Shown here: one piece after another, positions 11,902 through 30,772 of the stretch | Position numbering within the stretch: position 1 is the first letter of the stretch | How the letters are laid out: each line of letters begins with the position of its first letter | Assembly (NCBI GenBank): GCA_016841425.1 | Contig: JAENZE010000001.1 | Span: forward strand, 372,001 to 436,000 | Source of the DNA: Syntrophomonas sp. | GTDB taxonomy: Bacteria; Bacillota; Syntrophomonadia; Syntrophomonadales; Syntrophomonadaceae | Length of the DNA stretch: 64,000 bases | Reading direction: 5' to 3' | The notes under the pieces: generated by a model | The model's input: only the letters and a program-made list of their open reading frames with translations | Told to the model about the DNA's origin: nothing | Database searches by the model: none | Program-made: the position numbers and the translations under genes

Positions 11902-12076
11902 CAGATTATCATAAATTTTCCGGTAAATAACAAGAATTTTGTTTAAATTAGCTGCTTAATAAGGCGAGGGCATACTGAAGCAGTATAGATTGCTGTATAA
12001 ATATACCCAGTATGCTATAATAATCGCAAGACATAAATCGACTTATTGCGACGGATTTTTAAAGGAGGTATTTTCC

Positions 12077-13867
12077 TTGCCACAAGTACAGCCGATTAAT
12101 ACTATAACGGTTGGAGAAGCAATGACCTGCGATTTTGGGAGGGTTGCTAGTGATACTGCAGTAGAGACGGTTATCAGTATGATGTTGGAGAACCACTGGG
12201 GCGAAGTGGTAGTCGAAGGCGATTATCGGAATGGTTTTCAACTAGTTACTAAAGAACATCTTATGAGGTGTGTAGATAACGGTTTTCCTTCGTATCTTCC
12301 TATCTCCGAAATTGGCAGTAAAAATACTGTTACTACTACAGCTAACGAATCTCTGGTAGGGGCCCGGGAACTTATGAGGCAACTCCGGATTGGACGACTG
12401 CCGGTTATGGATACCACTGGAAATATTGTTGGTATGCTCACTGCCAGAGATGTATGTAATGGATTCAGTGATAAACTAGAAATGCTTAGTGAGCATATGT
12501 ATGCCATATTGCATAACATCAGTCAAGCCATACATGTAATCGATTGTGAGGGGCGTGTTATTTTTTGGAATCGAAGTGCAGAAGATTTATTTGGAATGAA
12601 AGCTGAGCATATTGTCGGTCTAAAATTAGAGGAATTTTTTCCGGACGATATCTCTTTGCAGGTAATTAACACTAGAGAATCATGTAAAAGTGTTTTTTAT
12701 GAGTTAAAAGAAGGCATATATGTAATCCGTAATTCAATGCCGGTGATCATGCCAGATGGGGCTATTGTCGGAGTAGTTTCTACTACTGCTGATGTCACCC
12801 ATTCTAAAACATTGATGGAAGAGTTAAATCGGGTTAACAGCAGAGTGAAACAACTTGAGGAAAGAATTGTCAACAAAGAAGATTTTATTAAAGACCCATT
12901 TTACACTATTAATACTGATACCAGGAGAATCTTGATTCAGGCCAAGCGGGTGGGAAGCACAGACGCAACGGTACTGATTCAGGGCGAGAGCGGTACGGGC
13001 AAGGAATTGATGGCCAATGTAATATATCAAAACAGCAAAAGGGCTAAACAACCGTTGATTGCAGTTAACTGCAGCGCCATTCCCAGTACTCTGTTTGAAA
13101 GTGAGATGTTTGGTTATGAAGCAGGCAGTTTTACTGGTGGCCATAAATCGGGTAAACCAGGGAAATTCGAGCTTGCGAACGGCGGAACCATATTCTTGGA
13201 TGAAATAGGGGAGCTCCCTTTGGATATGCAGGCCAAGCTGTTAAGGGTAATCCAGGAACGCAAGTTTTATAGGGTCGGTGGTACGGCGCCGGTAGAAGTG
13301 AATGTCAGGTTGATCGCAGCTACTAATAAGGATCTGACTCGGCTGGTTGCGGAAGGTAGATTTCGGGAAGACCTTTTTTATCGTTTAAATGTGGTAACAT
13401 TGGAAATACCTCCATTAAGACAGAGGCAGGAAGATATAGCTGGTTTGACCGATAGATTTATCAGTGAAATGGAATGCGTGTATATGCGGTCCATAGCCGG
13501 AATAGATAAACAGGTTCTGGATTTGTTTAGGGCTTATGAATGGCCTGGCAATGTACGTCAACTGCATAACCTGCTGGAAAGTGTGATAATATTAATGGAG
13601 GATGACTTTATTAGCCTCAATTCCCTGGCTGAGGCCGGAGTGTTAGAGACATTAAGCGGTAATAAAGATCTAATAAATGAAGGCCTGCTGCGGGAGGATG
13701 ATTTAGTTGATCCCAATTTAGATGACCTATTGGTTAGGAGAGAGCGGGAAGTAATTATCCGGGTCATGGAAGAATGCAAACACAACAAAGCACGGGCGGC
13801 TAAGAAACTGGGTATTCCCAGAAGTACTCTATATTATAAATTGAAGACTCTAGGGATATATGATTAA
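12077..13867 (+). CDS. Sigma-54-dependent transcriptional activator with CBS pair, PAS and Fis-type HTH
   Basis: This bacterial enhancer-binding protein of about 596 residues has, in order, two CBS domains (about 10-130; [29 protein letters not shown]), a PAS domain (about 140-240; [23 protein letters not shown]), an AAA+ sigma-54 activation domain (about 290-510; GESGTGKEL Walker [15 protein letters not shown] Walker B) and a C-terminal HTH ([19 protein letters not shown]). The sigma-54 contact loop reads GSFTGG instead of GAFTGA. I chose TTG 12077 because AAAGGAGG lies just upstream. CBS and PAS domains suggest sensing of adenylates or CoA-type ligands and of redox or a small ligand (inference). 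Sigma-54 promoters at 14019 and 26810 are the obvious targets. Confidence 0.93.
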
Positions 13868-14114: not shown

Positions 14115-14744
14115 TTGCCCAGAGAAAAAATGACTGAGTGGGATGATAAATTGTATCACAAAGTAGACCGGTATAATCTGGTGCCTAACCTGGAGGAATG
14201 CCTGCAGTGCGGTAAATGTACCGGCAACTGTCCGGTAGCTGCTCTGCATCCATCCTACAATCCCAGGCAGATAGTGCACGATATACTGCTGGGAGAGGTT
14301 GACAGGGTACTTCAGAGTGAAGAGATTTGGAGATGTTTGTGGTGTGCGAATTGTTATCGCGTATGCCCGGTTGACATTCACTATCCACTGCTTATGATGC
14401 AGCTGCGATACCTGGCTCTGGAGAATGGTTATGGACTTAAATACGTTACACCTATAAACAAATATGCCTATCGGTCTCTGGAATGCGGATTGACTTTCGT
14501 GCCCGGGCAAAAGGGCGTAGATAAAATAAAGGGTCTGAGAGAAGGAATTGGGGTAGAACCTTGGCCTAAGGTATCTAAGAAGGCTATTCATGAATATAGC
14601 GAGATATTTAAACAAACGGGAGCTTATGATTGGATGAAAGCACTGGATGAGGTGCAGGCTAAAGGGGAAGAAAAACCGGTAACACTTACTTTTTTGGGGG
14701 GGAGATTAATAGATGAGCAGTATGACACAGAAGAGGGTAATTAA
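14115..14744 (+). CDS. HdrC-like iron-sulfur protein (copy 1)
   Basis: The 209-residue protein has two [4Fe-4S] motifs of the HdrC type: CLQCGKCTGNCPVA at about residue 31 and CLWCANCYRVCPVDIHYP at about 75. In heterodisulfide reductases HdrC passes electrons between HdrA and HdrB. The start is probably TTG 14115, with GGAG 11 nt upstream; ATG 14130 is possible but lacks a ribosome-binding site. It is first in a five-gene operon downstream of a sigma-54 promoter and overlaps the next gene by 32 bp. The partner pathway is inferred, not shown. Confidence 0.88.
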   Translation: MPREKMTEWDDKLYHKVDRYNLVPNLEECLQCGKCTGNCPVAALHPSYNPRQIVHDILLGEVDRVLQSEEIWRCLWCANCYRVCPVDIHYPLLMMQLRYLALENGYGLKYVTPINKYAYRSLECGLTFVPGQKGVDKIKGLREGIGVEPWPKVSKKAIHEYSEIFKQTGAYDWMKALDEVQAKGEEKPVTLTFLGGRLIDEQYDTEEGN

Positions 14745-15702
14745 ACCTCAGGAGCGTATTCCAGAAATCCCCGAAAAGATATTTCTGTTCCGCAGCTGCA
14801 CAGGCAGTATGGAATACCCGGGTACTGAAAATTGTGTAGAGTATGTTCTCAAGAAATTGGGGATAGAAGTAATAAAAGACCCGGACCAAAGCTGTTGTTC
14901 GGGATATATACTAACTTGTTCCGGGCACATTGCCGAGCCATCACTGGCCGTAACAGCTCGTAATCTGGCTCTGGTTGAACAAAGATATGGTTTGGACACC
15001 TATGTTTTCTGCAATGGGTGTTTTGGCTATAATAAAGAATTAAAACACATTATTGACCATCACCCGGATTACAAAAAGATGTGCAATGATCTAATAGCCC
15101 AGTGGGGATATCATTACGAAGGTAAGAGCACTGTTTATCATGTGCAGGAATTGTATTACTTACTCTTGGACCGAATAAAAGAAAATATAGTTCGGCCCTT
15201 AAACGGATTAAGAGTTGCAGCTCACTACGGCTGTCACTACCTGGCTCAGCAATACGGCATCCTGGGTGAAGGGGATCTGCCTACGTTCCATGAAGAGATT
15301 TACGAAGCCCTGGGAGCAACCCCGGTCTTTTACAAAGAGAGAAGGATGTGTTGTGCTTACGCTGTGGGTCGGGGATTCACCCACCCGGAAAACGTGGTGC
15401 AGCCGCATCTGGCTCGTAAATTTGACAGCGCCAAGGAAGAGGGCGTTGATATAATGACCACTACCTGTCCGGGGTGCAATGTAGCATTAGATAGGGAACA
15501 GCCTAAACTTAAGAAAAGGGGCTTTGGACCGTACGATATTCCGGTAGTAGATTTAGGGCAGTTGATTGCTCTGGCATTAGGAGCCCCCATTGAGTCGATA
15601 GGTTTTAATGCGAATTCAACCCCTGTTGAACCGGTACTTAAAAAACTGGGGTTCTGTAAAGATGATTATGGGGTTTGGGAAAGGAGATTGGCAAATGAAT
15701 AA
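14713..15702 (+). CDS. HdrB-like CCG-domain protein (copy 1)
   Basis: This 329-residue protein has two cysteine-rich CCG domains. The first contains FRSCTGSMEYPG, SCCSGY and FCNGCFG; the second contains HYGCHYLA, RMCCAYAVG and TTTCPGCN. HdrB-type CCG domains bind non-cubane Fe-S clusters that reduce disulfides or pass electrons onward. The ATG at 14713 follows GGGGGAGAT and overlaps the upstream HdrC-like gene; the stop overlaps the HdrA-like start by 8 bp, indicating translational coupling. A methanogen-type CoM-S-S-CoB substrate is not expected in this host, so the physiological acceptor is unknown. Confidence 0.88.
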   Translation: MSSMTQKRVIKPQERIPEIPEKIFLFRSCTGSMEYPGTENCVEYVLKKLGIEVIKDPDQSCCSGYILTCSGHIAEPSLAVTARNLALVEQRYGLDTYVFCNGCFGYNKELKHIIDHHPDYKKMCNDLIAQWGYHYEGKSTVYHVQELYYLLLDRIKENIVRPLNGLRVAAHYGCHYLAQQYGILGEGDLPTFHEEIYEALGATPVFYKERRMCCAYAVGRGFTHPENVVQPHLARKFDSAKEEGVDIMTTTCPGCNVALDREQPKLKKRGFGPYDIPVVDLGQLIALALGAPIESIGFNANSTPVEPVLKKLGFCKDDYGVWERRLANE

Positions 15703-16714
15703 TAGCGTAAAGACAGCACTCATAATCGGCGGGGGAATGGCCGGGATGGAAGCAGCCAGTAAAATTGGCAGTGCGGGTTACAATGCCATTTTACTGGAAA
15801 AAGAGGACCATCTCGGCGGTATTATGAAACAGTTATATGGCAGTTTCCCGCGCTGGGACAACCCTCAGGAACTGGTTGGTCAAAAAGTGAAGATAGTGGA
15901 AGAAAATCCGAATGTTACGGTTAAAATAAACACCACTGTAAAGTCCGTGCAGAAAAAAGATGAATCATTTTTAGTGGAGCTGAGCAGCAATGAACAGGTG
16001 GAAATTGACGCAGTAGTTCTGGCTACCGGGTTTGGTTTTTTTGATACATCAGAATACGGAGAATATGGACATGGTTCATTCGATAATGTATATACTGCCC
16101 TGGAATTTGAAGGAAAATTAAAGGAAATGGAGTCCTGGGATAAGAAGGACCTACCCCAGGTTGTGGCGTTTTTTAAATGTGTAGGTTCCCGCGATCGGTC
16201 CAAAGGGTATCCATATTGTTCTAAAATATGCTGTATGTTTACTGCCAAAGAGGCCGGTTTGATGAAAGATATTAATCCAGATGCGAAGTGCTTCGTGTTT
16301 TACATGGACTATCGGGCGGCCGGCAAGGAATATGAAGAGTTTGTACGTTCAGTAATAGAAGACAAACATGTACGTTATGTCAGAGGGCGTCCGGCTAAAG
16401 TACTGCCTGAGAATGGCAAACTTATGATAAGAGCAGAGGATACGTTAATGGGTGTACCTGTTGAAGTGGCAGCAGATATGATCGTGCTGGCCAATGCTAT
16501 GATACCGTCTGAAGCCACCAAAGAGCTGGCACAGCTATTTGGTGCCAAAACCGATCAGTATGGATTTATTGATTATATTCCCGGACATCCAACTCAAACA
16601 GGAGATAGAGTGTTCTTCGCCGGCGGCTGCGGATTCCCGGTAGAAAGTCTGGGCGCACAGTATCAAGGGGCGGCAGCTGCGGCAGATGTTATAGCCCTGC
16701 TCAATCAGGATTAG
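15695..16714 (+). CDS. Short HdrA-like FAD-binding protein
   Basis: The 339-residue flavoprotein has an FAD Rossmann motif near the start (LIIGGGMAGMEAA, GGIMKQLYG) and the HdrA segment VAFFKCVGSRD...YCSKICCMFTAKEA at about residues 150-187, whose cysteines may hold a cluster. It ends with GDRVFFAGGC...YQGAAAAADV. It lacks the N-terminal and ferredoxin-like insert domains of full-length HdrA (about 650 residues). ATG 15695 has AAGGAG upstream. The gene lies at the centre of HdrC-HdrB-[this]-HdrC-HdrB. Flavin-based electron bifurcation or confurcation is possible but unproven, since no NADH-binding or hydrogenase subunit gene is adjacent. Confidence 0.85.
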   Translation: MNNSVKTALIIGGGMAGMEAASKIGSAGYNAILLEKEDHLGGIMKQLYGSFPRWDNPQELVGQKVKIVEENPNVTVKINTTVKSVQKKDESFLVELSSNEQVEIDAVVLATGFGFFDTSEYGEYGHGSFDNVYTALEFEGKLKEMESWDKKDLPQVVAFFKCVGSRDRSKGYPYCSKICCMFTAKEAGLMKDINPDAKCFVFYMDYRAAGKEYEEFVRSVIEDKHVRYVRGRPAKVLPENGKLMIRAEDTLMGVPVEVAADMIVLANAMIPSEATKELAQLFGAKTDQYGFIDYIPGHPTQTGDRVFFAGGCGFPVESLGAQYQGAAAAADVIALLNQD

Positions 16715-16725
16715 GGGGCGAGGAA

Positions 16726-17307
16726 ATGCTTAATACTGAAGATTTTTATCATGTTTGGAGAATAGATCAAACCAGCAGTTTACTCCGGGAGGAAATCAAG
16801 GAATACTGCCATACCAATATTGAGATGTGCCTGGAGTGCGGCAAATGTTCCGGTGGCTGTTCCAATGCCCATATTTTTGATATTACTCCCAGGAAGATAA
16901 TTCAATTAATAAAAATTGGGGAAGAAGCAAAACTATTAAAAATGGACGCATTATGGTCATGTGTGGCCTGCCAGTTATGTGTAGACCGCTGTCCGTCATC
17001 CATTAACATTCCCAGGATAATGGACTATTTAAGGGAGAAAGCTTATAAGCAAAACATTCCTTCCACCCGGCCCAATGTGGAGCTGTTCCATGAACTGATG
17101 CTGGGTAATATTAAGAAATTCGGCAGAGTACCGGAAGCTTTGTTAAGTGTAGAATTTAATATCAAGTCCAAACAGTATACCAAGGATGCTGAAATGGGAA
17201 TGAAAATGTTCTTTAAAGGTAAATTGAATCCCATCCCTGCAAGAGTAAAAGATATACAAATGGTTAGGCGTATGTTTAGAAATATACCAGCGCAGAGGGA
17301 GGGATAA
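16726..17307 (+). CDS. HdrC-like iron-sulfur protein (copy 2)
   Basis: This 193-residue protein carries two four-cysteine cluster motifs, CLECGKCSGGCSNA at about residue 35 and CVACQLCVDRCPSSINIP at about 84. The first has SGGCSNA instead of the usual CP. It follows the HdrA-like gene by 11 bp and touches the second HdrB-like gene (ATAATG overlap), so the pair is translated together. It differs clearly in sequence from copy 1, so this is an old paralogue pair rather than a recent tandem duplication. Confidence 0.87.
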   Translation: MLNTEDFYHVWRIDQTSSLLREEIKEYCHTNIEMCLECGKCSGGCSNAHIFDITPRKIIQLIKIGEEAKLLKMDALWSCVACQLCVDRCPSSINIPRIMDYLREKAYKQNIPSTRPNVELFHELMLGNIKKFGRVPEALLSVEFNIKSKQYTKDAEMGMKMFFKGKLNPIPARVKDIQMVRRMFRNIPAQREG

Positions 17308-18182
17308 TGATGAATGTAGCATATTACCCCGGGTGTTCACTGCATGGACTGGCCAAGGAATACGGAATATCGGTAGAAGTGGTATGCAAACACCTTGGTA
17401 TTGAATTAAACGAGATTGAAGATTGGAACTGCTGCGGAGCAACAGCAGCCCACAGTTTAAATCACGAACTCACAATAAGTTTGAGTGCTCGTAATCTGGC
17501 TATTGCCAGAGACATGAATATGGATAAAGTGCTGGCACCCTGTGCGGGATGCTTTAGCCGATTAAAAGGTGCTTCTTATGAACTAAGAAATAATAAGGTT
17601 CTGGCTGCTGAGGTATCGGAAATTATTAAAAGCGAAGCACCAGTAGAACCAGAGGTCAATAATTTACTGCAGTTTATCATGGAAGAACAAGGATTGGATG
17701 CTTTAAAAGGAAAGGTCACTAAACCCCTGCAGGGATTAAAACTAGCTGCCTATTACGGTTGCTTGCTGACCAGACCCAAAGAAGTAGTGCAGTTTGATGA
17801 TCCTGAACAACCGGTATCTATGGATTTAGTTTTACAAGCACTGGGAGCCGAAACTGTAAACTGGGCTCATAAGGCTGAGTGTTGCGGTGGTGGATATGCT
17901 GCCAGCGATACTGATATAGTCCTGGATTTGAGTGGGCAGGTTCTGGATTCAGCAAAGAGAGCTGGAGCAGATGCGATTGTTGTTGCCTGTCCCATGTGCG
18001 GTGTAAACCTGGATACCAGACAAGAGGCTGTTTCCGCTAAGAAAGGCATAAAGTACGATTTGCCAGTTATATATCTTACTCAGTTAATGGGGATAGCCTT
18101 TGGATATTCCCCAGCGCAGTTGGGCCTGAAGCGACATCTAAATAGTCCATTCCCATTACTGCAAAGTAAAGGATTGGCATAG
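17307..18182 (+). CDS. HdrB-like CCG-domain protein (copy 2)
   Basis: The 291-residue protein has both CCG domains in classical form: YYPGCSLHG, WNCCGATAAH and LAPCAGCFSRL, then AYYGCLLTRP, AECCGGGYAASD and VACPMCGVNLD. It is closer to canonical HdrB than copy 1. GAGGGAGG lies just upstream; the second of two adjacent ATGs (17310) has the better spacing. It is the last gene of the sigma-54-driven operon; no clear terminator follows before the CoA-transferase genes. Confidence 0.88.
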   Translation: MMNVAYYPGCSLHGLAKEYGISVEVVCKHLGIELNEIEDWNCCGATAAHSLNHELTISLSARNLAIARDMNMDKVLAPCAGCFSRLKGASYELRNNKVLAAEVSEIIKSEAPVEPEVNNLLQFIMEEQGLDALKGKVTKPLQGLKLAAYYGCLLTRPKEVVQFDDPEQPVSMDLVLQALGAETVNWAHKAECCGGGYAASDTDIVLDLSGQVLDSAKRAGADAIVVACPMCGVNLDTRQEAVSAKKGIKYDLPVIYLTQLMGIAFGYSPAQLGLKRHLNSPFPLLQSKGLA

Positions 18183-18441: not shown

Positions 18442-19425
18442 TTGAACAAAAGCAAGCTCATCACCATGAAAGAAGCTGTTGAGCAGTACACTTATGACGG
18501 GATGTATTTCGGTCATGGCGGAGCACTGCCCGTAGGTTCAGATTGCATTTCGTTTTTTAGAGAAATGGTTAAAGTCGGCAGAAAGGATATCGACATTGCT
18601 TCCAACTGTAATTCCCAGGGGACTAATCTTCTGGCAGCGGTGGGTGGACTCAAACGGATGGAAGTTGGATTTTCCGGATTAGAAGTATACGGTTTTGCCA
18701 ATGGCTTAAAAAGGGCAGTTGAAACCGGGCAGACCGTCCTGGAAGATTACTCCAATGGTGCAATACCTATTCGTATGATGGCCGGGGCATTAAATTGGCC
18801 CTTCATACCTATGTTTATGAATACCGGCTGTGATCAGCAATGGGCATCAGCAGATGATCCGGAAAACTATCCCAACACCAAGAAGATCCCGGAAATAACC
18901 GATCCATTTACTGGCAGAATTTGCGGCGCATTCACTCCTATCAAACCTGATGTGGCAGCCATTCATGTTACCATGGCGGATATTTACGGTAATGCCATTA
19001 TGCTGGGAACCGAATGGAACCGTTATGAATTATCACGCTGCTCCAAGAAGGTAATCCTTTGTGCGGACAAGATAGTCGATACCGGGGTTATGAGACAATA
19101 TCCCAACCTGGTTAGAATTCCATATATAGTAGTCGATGCAGTTGTCTACGCTCCGTTCGGTGTATGGCCACAGTGCTCAACCGGTCTCTATGATAGTGAT
19201 GAAGAGCACATGTACTACATGAACAAGATGCTCAAGACTGAAGAAGGTACAAATGAATATCTGCAAGCGTTCGGTCAGTATGATGATGTCTTTGATTATG
19301 TAAATCTGGTCGGACAGGAAAGAATTGACAAAATAACTAAAACTGATACTGCTTTTTTGATGGATCCGTATAGGCAGTGGATTAAAACTGATGCGGAAAT
19401 CAAGGAACTCTTGGAAAGGAGGTAA
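18442..19425 (+). CDS. Glutaconate-type CoA-transferase, alpha subunit (pair 1)
   Basis: This is the A subunit of a family I CoA-transferase resembling glutaconate CoA-transferase, 327 residues. Typical parts are YDGMYFGHGGALPVGS near the start, VLEDYSNGAIPIRMMAGAL at about residue 95, the substrate-region segment KPDVAAIHVTMADIYGNA, and KKVILCADKIVDTG. Such enzymes move CoA from acetyl-CoA or another acyl-CoA onto a carboxylic acid. The TTG start is preceded by GAGGAGGG. The beta gene begins 4 bp after the stop. The adjacent carrier gene suggests an imported organic acid is the substrate; which acid cannot be read from sequence. Confidence 0.9.
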   Translation: MNKSKLITMKEAVEQYTYDGMYFGHGGALPVGSDCISFFREMVKVGRKDIDIASNCNSQGTNLLAAVGGLKRMEVGFSGLEVYGFANGLKRAVETGQTVLEDYSNGAIPIRMMAGALNWPFIPMFMNTGCDQQWASADDPENYPNTKKIPEITDPFTGRICGAFTPIKPDVAAIHVTMADIYGNAIMLGTEWNRYELSRCSKKVILCADKIVDTGVMRQYPNLVRIPYIVVDAVVYAPFGVWPQCSTGLYDSDEEHMYYMNKMLKTEEGTNEYLQAFGQYDDVFDYVNLVGQERIDKITKTDTAFLMDPYRQWIKTDAEIKELLERR

Positions 19426-19429
19426 GATC

Positions 19430-20224
19430 ATGGATTATACAAGACAAGAAATGATGGCAATTGCAACCGGTAGGGAGTTTAAAGACGGTGAACTGGCAAT
19501 ATTCGGAGTTGGACTGAGTATGCTGGCAGGATTTTTTGCCCAGAGAAACCATGCTCCTGGTTTAATGGCTTTTACTGAAGGCGGAGTTTATGGCTCTACT
19601 CCAGTAGGCGGATTACCCTGGGGTATAGAAGATAATCGGATATCTGCCAATGCGGTCAGCTTTACCAACGCTATTGATGCTCTGGGATTCCTGGTCGCCT
19701 CTGGAAGGGTTGATAATGCGGTTATCGGTGCAGCTGAAGTTGATAAATATGGCAATGTTAATACCACCGGAATATGGGCTCCCGATACCGAGCCTTGGAA
19801 AGTAGGCAAATATACCCTGCCCCGGGTCCGGTTAAATGGTTCCGGCGGTGCCAATGAAATTGCCACTGGAGCTAAAAAATATCTGCTTATGGTTACCCAT
19901 GAAAAGAAGAGATTTAATGAAAAAGTTGCTTATATCTCTTCACCAGGTTACCTGGATGGCGGAAACACACGTGAAAAATATGGTTTCCCAGGAGGCGGAC
20001 CATCCGCAATGATTACTACCCTGGGAATACTAAGACCTGATCCGGTGACCAAGGAATTTATCCTTACCGGTTATTATCCCTTCTCTTCAATTGAAGAGAT
20101 TAAAGAGAATACCGGTTGGGATCTCAAGGTAGCTCCAGATGTTCAGGTTATTCCTGAACCTACTGAAAAGGAACTGGAGAACCTGAGAGCAGTAGACGTA
20201 ACTGGTTCACTTAGAAAGAAATAA
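19430..20224 (+). CDS. Glutaconate-type CoA-transferase, beta subunit (pair 1)
   Basis: The 264-residue beta subunit should hold the catalytic glutamate that forms the glutamyl-CoA thioester. Glu50 in LMAFTEGGVYGSTP is the best candidate, matching the position near 54 in glutaconate CoA-transferase. Later segments include NGSGGANEIATGA and PGYLDGGNTREKYG. ATG 19430 has AAAGGAGG upstream and follows the alpha gene by 4 bp. Unlike the beta subunit of pair 2, this one keeps the acidic active-site residue. Confidence 0.9.
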   Translation: MDYTRQEMMAIATGREFKDGELAIFGVGLSMLAGFFAQRNHAPGLMAFTEGGVYGSTPVGGLPWGIEDNRISANAVSFTNAIDALGFLVASGRVDNAVIGAAEVDKYGNVNTTGIWAPDTEPWKVGKYTLPRVRLNGSGGANEIATGAKKYLLMVTHEKKRFNEKVAYISSPGYLDGGNTREKYGFPGGGPSAMITTLGILRPDPVTKEFILTGYYPFSSIEEIKENTGWDLKVAPDVQVIPEPTEKELENLRAVDVTGSLRKK

Positions 20225-26809: not shown

Positions 26810-26826
26810 TTGGCATGTTAATTGCA
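26810..26826 (+). promoter_or_regulatory. Sigma-54 (-24/-12) promoter of CoA-transferase pair 2
   Basis: TTGGCATG-TTAA-TTGCA has the conserved GG and GC with correct spacing and closely matches the promoter at 14019-14035. It lies about 365 bp upstream of the second CoA-transferase alpha gene, on the same strand. Confidence 0.9.
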
Positions 26827-27190
26827 AGATAGATCAACAGTTACAGTAAGGAAACCATTAAATGCAGGGTCTTATAAGAAGGTGTTAAAATGCAGTGCTA
26901 AATGGGGAAAGCCTAATAACCAAAAAGAGTTTTTTGACCTAAACATTTCGGTTATAGATCCCGAACAACTCATAGTGCTGGCCCCGGGTGTTCCAGATAC
27001 GATAAATAAGCCTGTAAATGGTATACTGAAAAAGACTGGGGCAGGGAAAGGAGATGAAAAGCACTCGTAATCAGGGGTAAATAGCTGGAATGAAGGTGCT
27101 AACAAGTACTTCACTACAGGACTGAATTGGCAAATGTATTTGTATATATTTGCGAAGTCAATACATAATAAGTTTAAAAGGAGGATTAAA
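26827..27190 (+). other. Long 5' leader of CoA-transferase pair 2
   Basis: About 350 bp are transcribed before the alpha gene if the sigma-54 promoter is used. The leader contains AGAAGG followed by a three-codon frame ATG CAG TGC TAA (26890-26901). An open frame runs to 27070 whose product (with DPEQLIVLAPGVPD) is not recognised and lacks a convincing start. It may be a gene remnant or non-coding regulatory sequence. Confidence 0.4.
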
Positions 27191-28003
27191 ATGAAGGAGA
27201 AACTAATGTCTTTGTCACAGGCCGCTGATCTGATACAGGACGGGATGCTATTGGCTCTGGGTGGCAATGCAATGCATAGAAACCCCACTCTCTTTGCTTT
27301 AGAGTTGGCCCGTCGTCCCCTCAAGGGTCTTAAAGTATGTGGAGCAGCACCGGGAATAGCAACTGATTACCTGATGGCTCAGGTTGACACAGCCTACTTC
27401 GGTTTCTTTGGACTGGAAAACGAAGCGGGATTGGCTCCTCAAATGCGTAAATACATGGAAGGAGATGGACCAGCCCGCGCTATCGAAGGTTCTTGAACTG
27501 CCCAGATACACGCTCTCCGTGCGGGAGCATATGGGGTACCCTTCTTACCTGTAGGTGGGATGTGGGGCAGTGACCTGGTTGCTAAAAACCCGGATTTTTA
27601 CCACATATATAAAAATCCCTGGGGTGACGATGAAGTGGTGTGTGTAAGGGCACTTGTTCCAGATTATGCAATTCTTCATGTTCAGGAAGCAGATATTTAT
27701 GGTAATGCACGTATACTTGGTCCCAGCTATCAAGATGCATTAATGGCCAGAGCTGCCAAGAAGGTAATTTTAACCACGGAACGTATCGTGGGAACTTACC
27801 GCATGCAGGAAGAACCGAAGTTAACCGCTATTCCTCACTTCCTGGTCGAAGCAGTGGTTGAACTGCCCGGTGGAGCAAAACCGGGAATCTGTTATCCCGA
27901 GTATCTGACCGTAGACTGGGCTGACCACAAAGCTTATCAAAAAGCTGTGAAGGCAGACGAAGTCAAGCAATTTGCAGACAAAATGTTAGAAGGGAGGGCA
28001 TAA
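27191..28003 (+). CDS. CoA-transferase family alpha subunit (pair 2) interrupted by an in-frame TGA at codon 102
   Basis: Two matching halves lie in one frame: MKEKLMSLSQAADLIQDGM... to IEGS, and TAQIHALRAGAYGVPFLPVG to the stop at 28001-28003. They are separated only by TGA at 27494-27496. Read through, the product has 270 residues, including ILHVQEADIYGNARI and KKVILTTERIVGTY as in the alpha subunit of pair 1. The frame after the TGA stays open for 168 codons, and the beta gene follows after 2 bp. Three explanations remain: selenocysteine insertion (a hairpin lies 16 nt on), a fresh nonsense mutation, or a sequencing error. AAAAGGAGG precedes ATG 27191. Function by family: CoA transfer or a related CoA-ester reaction. 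Confidence 0.75.
27501..27535 (+). promoter_or_regulatory. Candidate bacterial SECIS-like hairpin after the in-frame TGA
   Basis: GCTCTC (27512-27517) pairs with GGGAGC (27523-27528), with one wobble, around the loop CGTGC (27518-27522). A lower stem CCCA (27501-27504) / TGGG (27532-27535) can extend it. The loop starts 21 nt after the TGA and has a G within its first two bases, which satisfies loose published bacterial SECIS rules. Short GC stems in coding DNA are common, so this is suggestive only. Confidence 0.35.
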
Positions 28004-28005
28004 AT

Positions 28006-28752
28006 ATGGAATTCGGCAAAGATTATGGCAAACCGGAAATGTTCGCAACAGCGGTTATGCGCGAAATAAAAGACGGCGAAATCGTATTTCACGGCCTCGC
28101 TTCTTCAACTCCTATGGTAGTAATGAAAGCCGCCAAAGCTTTGGGAAAAGACTTCACCTATGTTACTCTGAGCGATGGTGTAGATCATGACTGGAATCGT
28201 CCTCCCTATGTAGCATCAACTTTGACTGAGAACACTTACACCGGATCAGTGGCTACTTTCGGACTGGATGAAATATTTGACCTGTATGCCTCTGGCAAGG
28301 GTGATATCGCCTTTCTATCCTGTTTGCAGATTGATAAAACAGGAAGAATAGCTATGTCCTATGTTGGCGGTGACTATGATCATCCAAAACTCAGAGGACC
28401 TGGTGGTGCAGGCAGTGCAACTCTTACTCCGGTAACCAAAAGAACTATAATATGGAAAACAGCTCATGACAAAAGAACCATGGTTGAGCATGTCGAGTTT
28501 GCAACTACCTCGCCCGCAGTAGATAAAGAGTTCACCCTGATTACTCCTTTGTGTATTTTCCGCAAACCGGTTGGAGAAAAGCTTTTGAAACTGGAATGCA
28601 TCTTCCCATATACAACTGTTGATGAGGTGAAAGAAAATACCGCCTGGGTGATCGACGAGACTGAAGTGCCGGTTATGGCGCCTCCAACTGAAGAAGAGCT
28701 GGCAGCATTAAAGAAAGTAGATCCAAACAATATTCTGGCTTTTGAATTCTAA
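28006..28752 (+). CDS. CoA-transferase family beta subunit (pair 2), probable active-site variant
   Basis: The 248-residue protein aligns with the beta subunit of pair 1 (IKDGEIVFHG versus FKDGELAIFG; GPGGAGSATLTP versus GSGGANEIAT; FPYTTVDEVKENTAW versus YPFSSIEEIKENTGW). At the position of the catalytic Glu50 it reads TLSDGVDHD, so Ser56 replaces Glu and an Asp follows. This suggests different chemistry, for instance a CoA-ester hydrolase as known for the CoA-transferase-fold enzyme IpdAB, or a catalytic residue supplied by the alpha subunit. It starts 2 bp after the alpha stop with AAGGGAGGG upstream. The frame is intact, arguing against an old pseudogene. Confidence 0.85.
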   Translation: MEFGKDYGKPEMFATAVMREIKDGEIVFHGLASSTPMVVMKAAKALGKDFTYVTLSDGVDHDWNRPPYVASTLTENTYTGSVATFGLDEIFDLYASGKGDIAFLSCLQIDKTGRIAMSYVGGDYDHPKLRGPGGAGSATLTPVTKRTIIWKTAHDKRTMVEHVEFATTSPAVDKEFTLITPLCIFRKPVGEKLLKLECIFPYTTVDEVKENTAWVIDETEVPVMAPPTEEELAALKKVDPNNILAFEF

Positions 28753-29107: not shown

Positions 29108-30772
29108 ATGAAGAAAAAAGTATTAATAGTAGGTGGTGTGGCAGGAGGAGCCAGTTCTGCGTGTCGCTTGAGGCGTCTGGATGAAGAAGCAGAAATCATA
29201 ATGTTTGAACGCGGGGCAGATATATCTTTTGCTAACTGTGGTCTTCCCTACTATGTCGGTGGGGTTATCGAGCAGCGAAAGAAACTGCTGGTGCAGACTC
29301 CTAAAGCGATGCGCAGCCGGTTTAACATCGATGTTCGTACCATGAGTGAGGTTTCAAAGATATTCCCAGCTGAAAAAAGGGTAGTAATAAAAAATTTACT
29401 TAATGATACCAGCTATGAAGAAAATTATGATTACCTGGTATTATCTCCCGGAGCACAGCCAGCCCTGCATGATATACCAGGAATTAATAAGGGGAATGTG
29501 TTCGTGGTCAGAAATGTACCGGATAGTGATGCCATAAAGCAGTATATCGAGATAAACAAACCGTCTGCTGCTGCGGTCGTAGGAGCTGGCTATATTGGTC
29601 TGGAAATGGCTGAGATGCTTAAAGAATCAGGATTAAAAGTGACAATAGTAGAAGCTGCCGAACAGATCATGGGAGCATTGGACCCGGACATGGCTGCTAT
29701 CGTTCAGGAATATATTCAAAAGCACGGAATTGATATAATTCTCTCTGATAAAGTAGTAGCCATGGAGGGCAGCGATCAAGTTGAAAATATTCAGCTGGAA
29801 AGCGGTAAATCAGTTTCTGCCCAAATAGTTATTATGGGCGCTGGAGTGAAACCAGAAGTGTGGCTGGCTAAAGAGGCTGGTTTAGCTATCGGCACTACTG
29901 GCGGTATACTGGTTGATGATTATCTGCAGACTTCTGATCCCCATATATATGCGGCAGGAGACGCTATACAGATAAAAGATTTCGTTACCGGTGATGACAG
30001 TCTGGTTCCTCTGGCCGGACCAGCCAACCGGCAGGGATGGATAGTAGCCAATAATATTTGTGGACGCAAGATTAAATATACTGGTTCTCAGGGGACTTCG
30101 ATTGTAAAAATTATGGATATGGTGGCCGGAGGTACCGGACAAAATGAAAAACAGCTGAAGAGAAAAAATATAGAGTATTTAGTTTGCCATGCTCATCCCT
30201 TTTCTCATGCTACCTATTATCCGGGTAGCACTCAAATGACCATCAAACTTTTGTTTACACCTAAAGAAGGTGAAATTCTGGGTGCTCAAGTAGCAGGATA
30301 TAGTAATGTAGATAAAACCATAGATGTGCTGGCCACTGCCATCCGGGCGGATATGACTGTATACGATTTATTAGAACTGGAACTTGCTTATGCACCTCCA
30401 TTTTCCTCGGCCAAGAGTCCTCCTAATATGGTAGGGTATGTGGCAGCCAATATATTGGATAATAGTATTGACAGCGTAAGATGGGAAGAAGTAATGGACC
30501 TGGTTGAAGGCGGGGCTTTCTTAATCGATACCCGAATGCCCAATGAAGTAGAAAAAGGGTCTGTACCCGGTGCATATAACATTCCAGTTGACAACCTTCG
30601 TGAGCGGCTGGATGAGATACCTGAAGATAAGGAGATATGTGTATTTTGTCAGGTAGGATTGAGATCATATATCGCCAACCGGATACTTAAACAAAACGGA
30701 TTTAAAACCAGGAATATAAGCGGTGGATATAAACTATATCAATCTCTAAAAAACTGCCAGGTGATTAATTAA
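29108..30772 (+). CDS. CoA-disulfide reductase-type flavoprotein fused to a rhodanese domain
   Basis: The 554-residue protein has an FAD Rossmann motif (VLIVGGVAGGASSACRLRR), the single redox cysteine Cys44 in SFANCGLPYYVGG, a central NAD(P)H-binding motif (VVGAGYIGLEMAEML) and a dimerisation domain. A C-terminal rhodanese domain from about residue 465 has the persulfide cysteine in FCQVGLRSY. This is the CoADR-RHD arrangement, which reduces CoA disulfide, CoA persulfide or polysulfide with NAD(P)H. It could keep CoA in the thiol form needed by the neighbouring CoA-transferases (inference). The gene is alone between terminators and has an unusual structured leader and a weak ribosome-binding site. 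Confidence 0.92.
   Translation: MKKKVLIVGGVAGGASSACRLRRLDEEAEIIMFERGADISFANCGLPYYVGGVIEQRKKLLVQTPKAMRSRFNIDVRTMSEVSKIFPAEKRVVIKNLLNDTSYEENYDYLVLSPGAQPALHDIPGINKGNVFVVRNVPDSDAIKQYIEINKPSAAAVVGAGYIGLEMAEMLKESGLKVTIVEAAEQIMGALDPDMAAIVQEYIQKHGIDIILSDKVVAMEGSDQVENIQLESGKSVSAQIVIMGAGVKPEVWLAKEAGLAIGTTGGILVDDYLQTSDPHIYAAGDAIQIKDFVTGDDSLVPLAGPANRQGWIVANNICGRKIKYTGSQGTSIVKIMDMVAGGTGQNEKQLKRKNIEYLVCHAHPFSHATYYPGSTQMTIKLLFTPKEGEILGAQVAGYSNVDKTIDVLATAIRADMTVYDLLELELAYAPPFSSAKSPPNMVGYVAANILDNSIDSVRWEEVMDLVEGGAFLIDTRMPNEVEKGSVPGAYNIPVDNLRERLDEIPEDKEICVFCQVGLRSYIANRILKQNGFKTRNISGGYKLYQSLKNCQVIN

Follow-up and report, generated by a model that had tools for sequence, protein, structure and literature searches.

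A predicted selenoprotein with the CoA-transferase fold, encoded near heterodisulfide reductase-like genes in Syntrophomonas sp.

The closest described relatives of the proteins discussed here are three enzymes of the CoA-transferase fold, namely glutaconate CoA-transferase (GctAB; PDB 1poi), the steroid ring-cleaving hydrolase IpdAB (PDB 6co6, 6co9, 6coj, 6con), and the 3-methylglutaconyl-CoA decarboxylase AibAB of Myxococcus (PDB 5mzw-5n03). The usual catalytic site of the beta subunit is Glu54 in GctB and Cys56 in AibB. A 2026 inventory of 119 prokaryotic selenoprotein families holds no entry with the CoA-transferase fold (PMC13188914). Our full-text searches of open-licence papers returned no earlier report of a selenocysteine CoA-transferase; in one paper the terms selenocysteine and CoA-transferase both occur, for unrelated proteins (PMC5736913), and the deep-Sep paper gave no match for CoA or transferase. 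The initial annotation had called selenocysteine in this fold undescribed, which agrees with the inventory and with the literature covered: a CoA-transferase-fold selenoprotein family has not previously been listed as selenium-dependent.

The window analyzed here, a 64,000-nucleotide stretch of a Syntrophomonas sp. genome, encodes a GctAB-like pair (tentatively referred to as pair 1) and a further alpha/beta pair whose alpha gene contains an in-frame TGA codon (referred to as the Sec pair). The features of the Sec pair are as follows.

27191..28003, + strand: alpha subunit gene, predicted CoA-transferase-fold selenoprotein read through TGA102 (from the ORF, Pfam, and orthologues)
27494..27496, + strand: TGA codon 102, predicted selenocysteine (conserved column, Cys in relatives)
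27512..27528, + strand: putative bacterial SECIS-type hairpin GCTCTC-CGTGC-GGGAGC (covariation, synonymous conservation)
28006..28752, + strand: beta subunit gene, with Leu55 at the usual catalytic position (Pfam, alignments)

Predicted recoding of the in-frame TGA codon

The alpha frame, which is preceded by a strong Shine-Dalgarno sequence (AAAGGAGGATTAAAATG), contains a single internal TGA at codon 102, after which it remains open for 168 codons up to a TAA. Read through the TGA, the whole frame matches Pfam CoA_trans with 60.6 bits (cut-off 23). It shares 32% identity with pair 1 alpha, where Asn occupies the Sec position. The initial annotation had placed the TGA between two halves homologous to pair 1 alpha, with an open frame beyond it and an intact beta gene downstream (28006-28752), and all of this was borne out. 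NCBIfam and Pfam searches with the predicted selenoprotein gave generic CoA-transferase matches only. Ordinary ORF calling splits such genes at the TGA, and it breaks this one into 27134-27496 and 27560-28003. Non-synonymous divergence is low both upstream and downstream of the TGA codon.

Among 100 related genomes, all 14 full-length close orthologues (61-86% identity) have one internal stop, which is always TGA and always at codon 102, within an invariable EGS-U-TA motif. When 398 genomes from the phylum and 63 from the order were searched with profiles, more divergent members were found, with either TGA (L055, L056, L057, L060, L062, and L064) or Cys (L058, L059, and L061) at the Sec column; together with Acetoanaerobium noterae, which has a Cys form, this makes four more distant Cys members. 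A second, divergent Sec clade has the motif (E/D)H(T/V)-U, and a search of another class added L110-L118. The same alignment column is TGA in 28 non-redundant homologues, and every close clade member has TGA or Cys there. In the tree, a 100/99 branch separates the 28 Sec rows, together with three Cys and three Glu rows, from the Asn and His rows; an 18-row Sec clade has the Cys pair L058/L059 as its sister group, and L060 (Sec) falls outside both. As the TGA is conserved across independent genomes, a sequencing error and a recent nonsense mutation, which the initial annotation had wanted excluded, can both be ruled out. A changed genetic code was also rejected, since TGA ends six of the 39 long ORFs in the window. 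Another CoA-transferase-fold alpha gene with one in-frame TGA is present at G471 C127:10-729, in the class searched for L110-L118.

The components required by the initial annotation's reading, selA, selB, selC, and selD, are all found in the genome of the window, with scores above the curated cut-offs: tRNA-Sec (selC; 69.7 bits, cut-off 47), SelB (366, cut-off 242), SelA (584, cut-off 268), and SelD (376, cut-off 125), the selD gene itself having an in-frame TGA. The four genes lie within 10 kb (G000 C17:166573-175975). Further, tRNA-Sec scored above the cut-off in 20 of 20 other Sec holders tested, and selA was found in all tested Sec holders except G052, an 88%-complete genome; selA is absent from G088, which has Glu at the site.

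The hairpin with the loop CGTGC is located at 27512-27528 as claimed, and its first base is the 16th past the TGA. By itself, the hairpin does not have an exceptional folding energy (z -0.38 and -0.44 vs. dinucleotide shuffles), and 6% of synonymous resamplings fold as well. An Rfam scan of the window at gathering thresholds returned a T-box and four tRNAs, and nothing else. Because single-sequence hairpin energies are modest and mostly non-significant across the members, we relied on covariation. Every Sec member has a stem-loop beginning 15-16 nt past the UGA, and a comparable stem was not seen in the Cys members. In group 1 (19 sequences), 114 of 114 pair cells are standard, and two pairs show compensatory changes, both at third codon positions (UA to CG; CG to GC and to UA). 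Among the 10 sequences of group 2, 98.6% of the pair cells are standard, with four compensated pairs and one broken cell. Slid controls gave 28-68% and 30-44% standard pairs, all lower than the true registers. In columns with an invariant amino acid, codon identity within the hairpin is 0.80, 0.80, 1.0, 0.80, and 0.54; elsewhere in the gene, it averages 0.31 for invariant fourfold codons (n = 39, maximum 0.57) and 0.33 for invariant sixfold codons (n = 11, maximum 0.63). The SECIS assignment is therefore upheld by covariation and raised synonymous conservation, but not by single-sequence stability; judged from this comparative evidence, which gives it its significance, the window hairpin is a putative SECIS-type element under selection.

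Based on the conserved TGA, the exchange between Sec and Cys, the covarying hairpin, and the sel machinery, TGA102 almost certainly encodes selenocysteine (Sec102), and the candidate reading of the initial annotation is thus supported by the homologue alignment, the SECIS test, and the sel genes. In this mechanism, SelB, tRNA-Sec, and the hairpin at 27512-27528 would recode UGA102 as selenocysteine in the alpha subunit. It is extremely improbable that a different amino acid is inserted at the TGA or that a nonsense mutation has turned the gene into a pseudogene, in either case without a selenoprotein as the full-length product: such a reading would fit the splitting of the gene by ordinary ORF calling, but six of 39 window ORFs end on TGA, Cys replaces the TGA in relatives, the SECIS-type hairpin covaries, and tRNA-Sec is present in all Sec holders tested.

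Gene neighborhood and possible regulation

Besides the Sec pair, the window contains the following features.

11990..13867, + strand: PrdR-related sigma-54 activator (CBS, PAS, AAA, and HTH_8 domains), with relatives also near the cluster in L096 and L098
14020..14035, + strand: sigma-54-type promoter site upstream of the hdr genes
14115..14744, + strand: hdrC1-like gene
14713..15702, + strand: hdrB1-like gene
15608..16714, + strand: short hdrA-like gene
16726..17307, + strand: hdrC2-like gene
17307..18182, + strand: hdrB2-like gene
18442..19425, + strand: pair 1 alpha, GctA-like, with Asn at the Sec position
19391..20224, + strand: pair 1 beta, GctB-like, with Glu kept in TEGGVYGS
26811..26826, + strand: sigma-54-type promoter site TGGCATGTTAATTGCA upstream of the Sec pair, with a similar site before the L092 orthologue
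29108..30772, + strand: CoA-disulfide reductase-like protein with a C-terminal rhodanese domain

In Syntrophothermus lipocalidus (L090), a single cluster consists of hdrC1-hdrB1-hdrA-hdrC2-hdrB2, a true CoA-transferase pair, an MFS transporter, and the Sec pair, and the same full cluster is present in L091, L094, L095, L106, L107, and L109. L096, L097, L098, and L099 retain most of the hdr genes and the Sec pair. The Sec pair occurs with hdrC1B1AC2B2 in most relatives, where the MFS transporter and the true CoA-transferase pair are often found as well. In the window, the cluster is split, with about 7 kb from pair 1 to the Sec pair and 9 kb from the hdr genes to the Sec pair; each half comes with a sigma-54-type site of its own (14020 and 26811, respectively). 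By chance, the window would be expected to contain two such sites with at most one mismatch, so that their support comes from their position and from their recurrence in relatives, where similar sites lie before the hdr genes, before the Sec pair, or before the cluster (L090 18068, L092 10595, L094 1979, L095 18226, L098 2626, and L109 609); several genomes also have a PrdR-related activator gene close by. A small open frame of 62 codons with a GTG start (26882-27070), possibly a gene remnant, lies between the sigma-54-type site and the Sec gene. In L092, which belongs to the window's own genus, a 167-aa HdrA-like fragment (12829-13332) precedes the Sec pair; it looks like what loss or disruption of the hdr cluster would leave behind.

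A gene encoding a CoA-disulfide reductase-like protein with a rhodanese domain follows the Sec pair in the window, L092, and L095. In A. noterae, a CoA-disulfide reductase gene (611.8 bits, cut-off 458) lies ahead of the Cys pair with a gap of 7 bp, and this arrangement is, going by gene order, an independent link to thiol redox. The A. noterae locus (L153 1949-16711, strain DSL2, NZ_CP154629.1, a 2.63 Mb record labelled plasmid) also encodes methylthioribose kinase and its isomerase, class II aldolase, aldehyde dehydrogenase, and phosphate propanoyltransferase.

No hdr genes are linked to the divergent members L100-L102 or to the Cys forms in the loci inspected, and Hdr redox coupling would therefore not be universal. 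In the second Sec clade (L101, L102, L146, and L148), the adjoining genes encode adenine deaminase, HAD hydrolase, and FMN reductase, partly in divergent direction; together with GGDEF, these neighbors suggested no clear pathway, several being divergently oriented.

Probable active site and possible function

Both subunits of the Sec pair have the CoA-transferase fold and match Pfam CoA_trans, and the alpha subunit matches GctA, IpdA, and AibA in both sequence and fold (TM about 0.73-0.76; model predicted for one chain, pLDDT 73.6). Helix 102-114 of the predicted alpha model begins with Sec102. Counted back gaplessly from the common helix (LRAGAYGIPF / LEAAAARLPF), Sec102 aligns with Glu105 of IpdA, an equivalence that is our own gapless reading, HMMER placing small gaps there. 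The chains of 6co6 and 6coj differ at Glu105 (E105A). Farther CoA-transferase-fold paralogues have Asn, His, or Glu at the Sec column, which points away from an ordinary Cys site and toward an active-site position, that of Glu105 in IpdA. Sec102 is very likely located at the active site.

In the beta subunit, Leu55 corresponds to the site where the AibB variants 5n00-5n03 differ, and most of the clade has Leu or Ile at this usual catalytic site; pair 1 beta keeps its Glu in TEGGVYGS. The Sec pair thus has Leu55 in place of both the catalytic beta Glu of class I CoA-transferases and the beta Cys56 of the AibAB decarboxylase, and Sec or Cys in place of the alpha Glu105 of the IpdAB hydrolase. 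Because of the beta Leu at the usual catalytic site, the Sec pair is probably not an ordinary, classical CoA-transferase. The catalytic group has apparently shifted from a carboxylate in the beta subunit to a selenol in the alpha subunit, and there is good reason to expect Sec at the active site of a non-classical enzyme of this fold. From these alignments, we infer that selenium would be the catalytic atom.

The most likely function, in our view, is that of a redox-cycling acyl-CoA enzyme and not of a CoA-transferase. In such an enzyme, an acid imported by the MFS transporter would be activated by the neighboring true CoA-transferase pair, and Sec102, replacing the catalytic Glu105 of IpdA at the N-terminus of the active-site helix, would attack a substituent of the bound acyl-CoA with its selenolate. 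The acyl-CoA would leave as a stabilized enolate, with a selenosulfide or mixed disulfide left on the enzyme, and this bond would be reduced by HdrC1B1AC2B2 or, where it is encoded, by the CoA-disulfide reductase. Glycine reductase and the omega-class glutathione transferases provide precedents for such chemistry. The linkage to the hdr genes and the CoA-disulfide reductase link in two distant lineages argue for this redox model. We give redox coupling of the Sec enzyme an even chance; the specific reaction drawn (substituent attack, enolate leaving, and Se-S reset) is unlikely to hold as a whole, and the substrate and the bond cleaved are conjecture.

The main rival to the redox model is that Sec102 acts as a non-redox nucleophile or base, as in IpdAB, so that the pair would hydrolyze an acyl-CoA, cleave a C-C bond, or decarboxylate its substrate in the manner of IpdAB or AibAB, the selenolate forming a selenoester or acting on the acyl chain. 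The nearest solved folds (AibAB, IpdAB, and GctAB) and the placement of Sec at the catalytic Glu of IpdA would suit such chemistry, and to our knowledge neither IpdAB nor AibAB is a redox enzyme; however, the linkage to Hdr and CoA-disulfide reductase genes and the usual redox role of Sec in bacteria speak against it, and we regard it as somewhat unlikely. It is quite improbable that the pair is a true, if unusual, CoA-transferase whose Sec replaces the beta Glu as carrier of the acyl or CoA group: both subunits match Pfam CoA_trans and the Sec pair adjoins another CoA-transferase pair, but the beta subunit of the clade has Leu or Ile at the catalytic position and pair 1 in the same operon keeps its Glu, so that a second transferase would be redundant.

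Returning to the redox model, we tentatively propose, at slightly less than even chances, that the Sec pair represents a new class of selenium-dependent acyl-CoA redox enzymes on the CoA-transferase fold, with catalysis shifted from a beta carboxylate to an alpha selenol and turnover by a dual heterodisulfide-reductase module, in an undescribed catabolic pathway of syntrophic bacteria. If true, a fold known for catalysis by carboxylates would bring selenium chemistry into acyl-CoA metabolism, and a partner enzyme would be added to the hdrC1B1AC2B2 modules in these syntrophic bacteria. As the Sec gene is present in a cultured organism (S. lipocalidus TGB-C1), this is directly testable.

Comparison with known systems

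Similar to the Sec pair, IpdAB is a two-subunit enzyme of the CoA-transferase fold with a catalytic alpha residue at what appears to be the same place (Glu105 = Sec102). It differs in having Glu in IpdA where Sec or Cys is found here, in its 25-27% identity, and in its lack of Hdr linkage. AibAB, a thiol-dependent member of the fold, is the best fold match of the alpha subunit and the best sequence match of the beta subunit; however, the catalytic Cys of AibB is located where this beta has Leu55, and AibA has Gly at the Sec place. GctAB shares the fold and the subunit order, provides the best PDB sequence match of the alpha subunit, and is of the same kind as pair 1 of the window, but its beta catalytic Glu is missing from the Sec pair, and in GctA the residue at this alpha position is Gln in place of Sec.

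Glycine and proline reductases (GrdA/GrdB and PrdB) offer a working analogy, in which a selenolate attacks a small acid and the Se-S bond is then reduced. A PrdR-related activator is present upstream here, but the fold is unrelated, and no homology is claimed. The sHdr complex of sulfur oxidizers (hdrC1B1A-hyp-hdrC2B2), which is accompanied by a lipoate-binding protein, has the same C1-B1-A-C2-B2 order and a short HdrA, whereas the hdr cluster in the window lacks hyp between A and C2 and is linked to CoA-transferase-fold pairs. The hdrC1-hdrB1-hdrA-hdrC2-hdrB2 genes at 14115-18182 thus present an sHdr-like order minus hyp in syntrophic bacteria, conserved beside the predicted selenoprotein.
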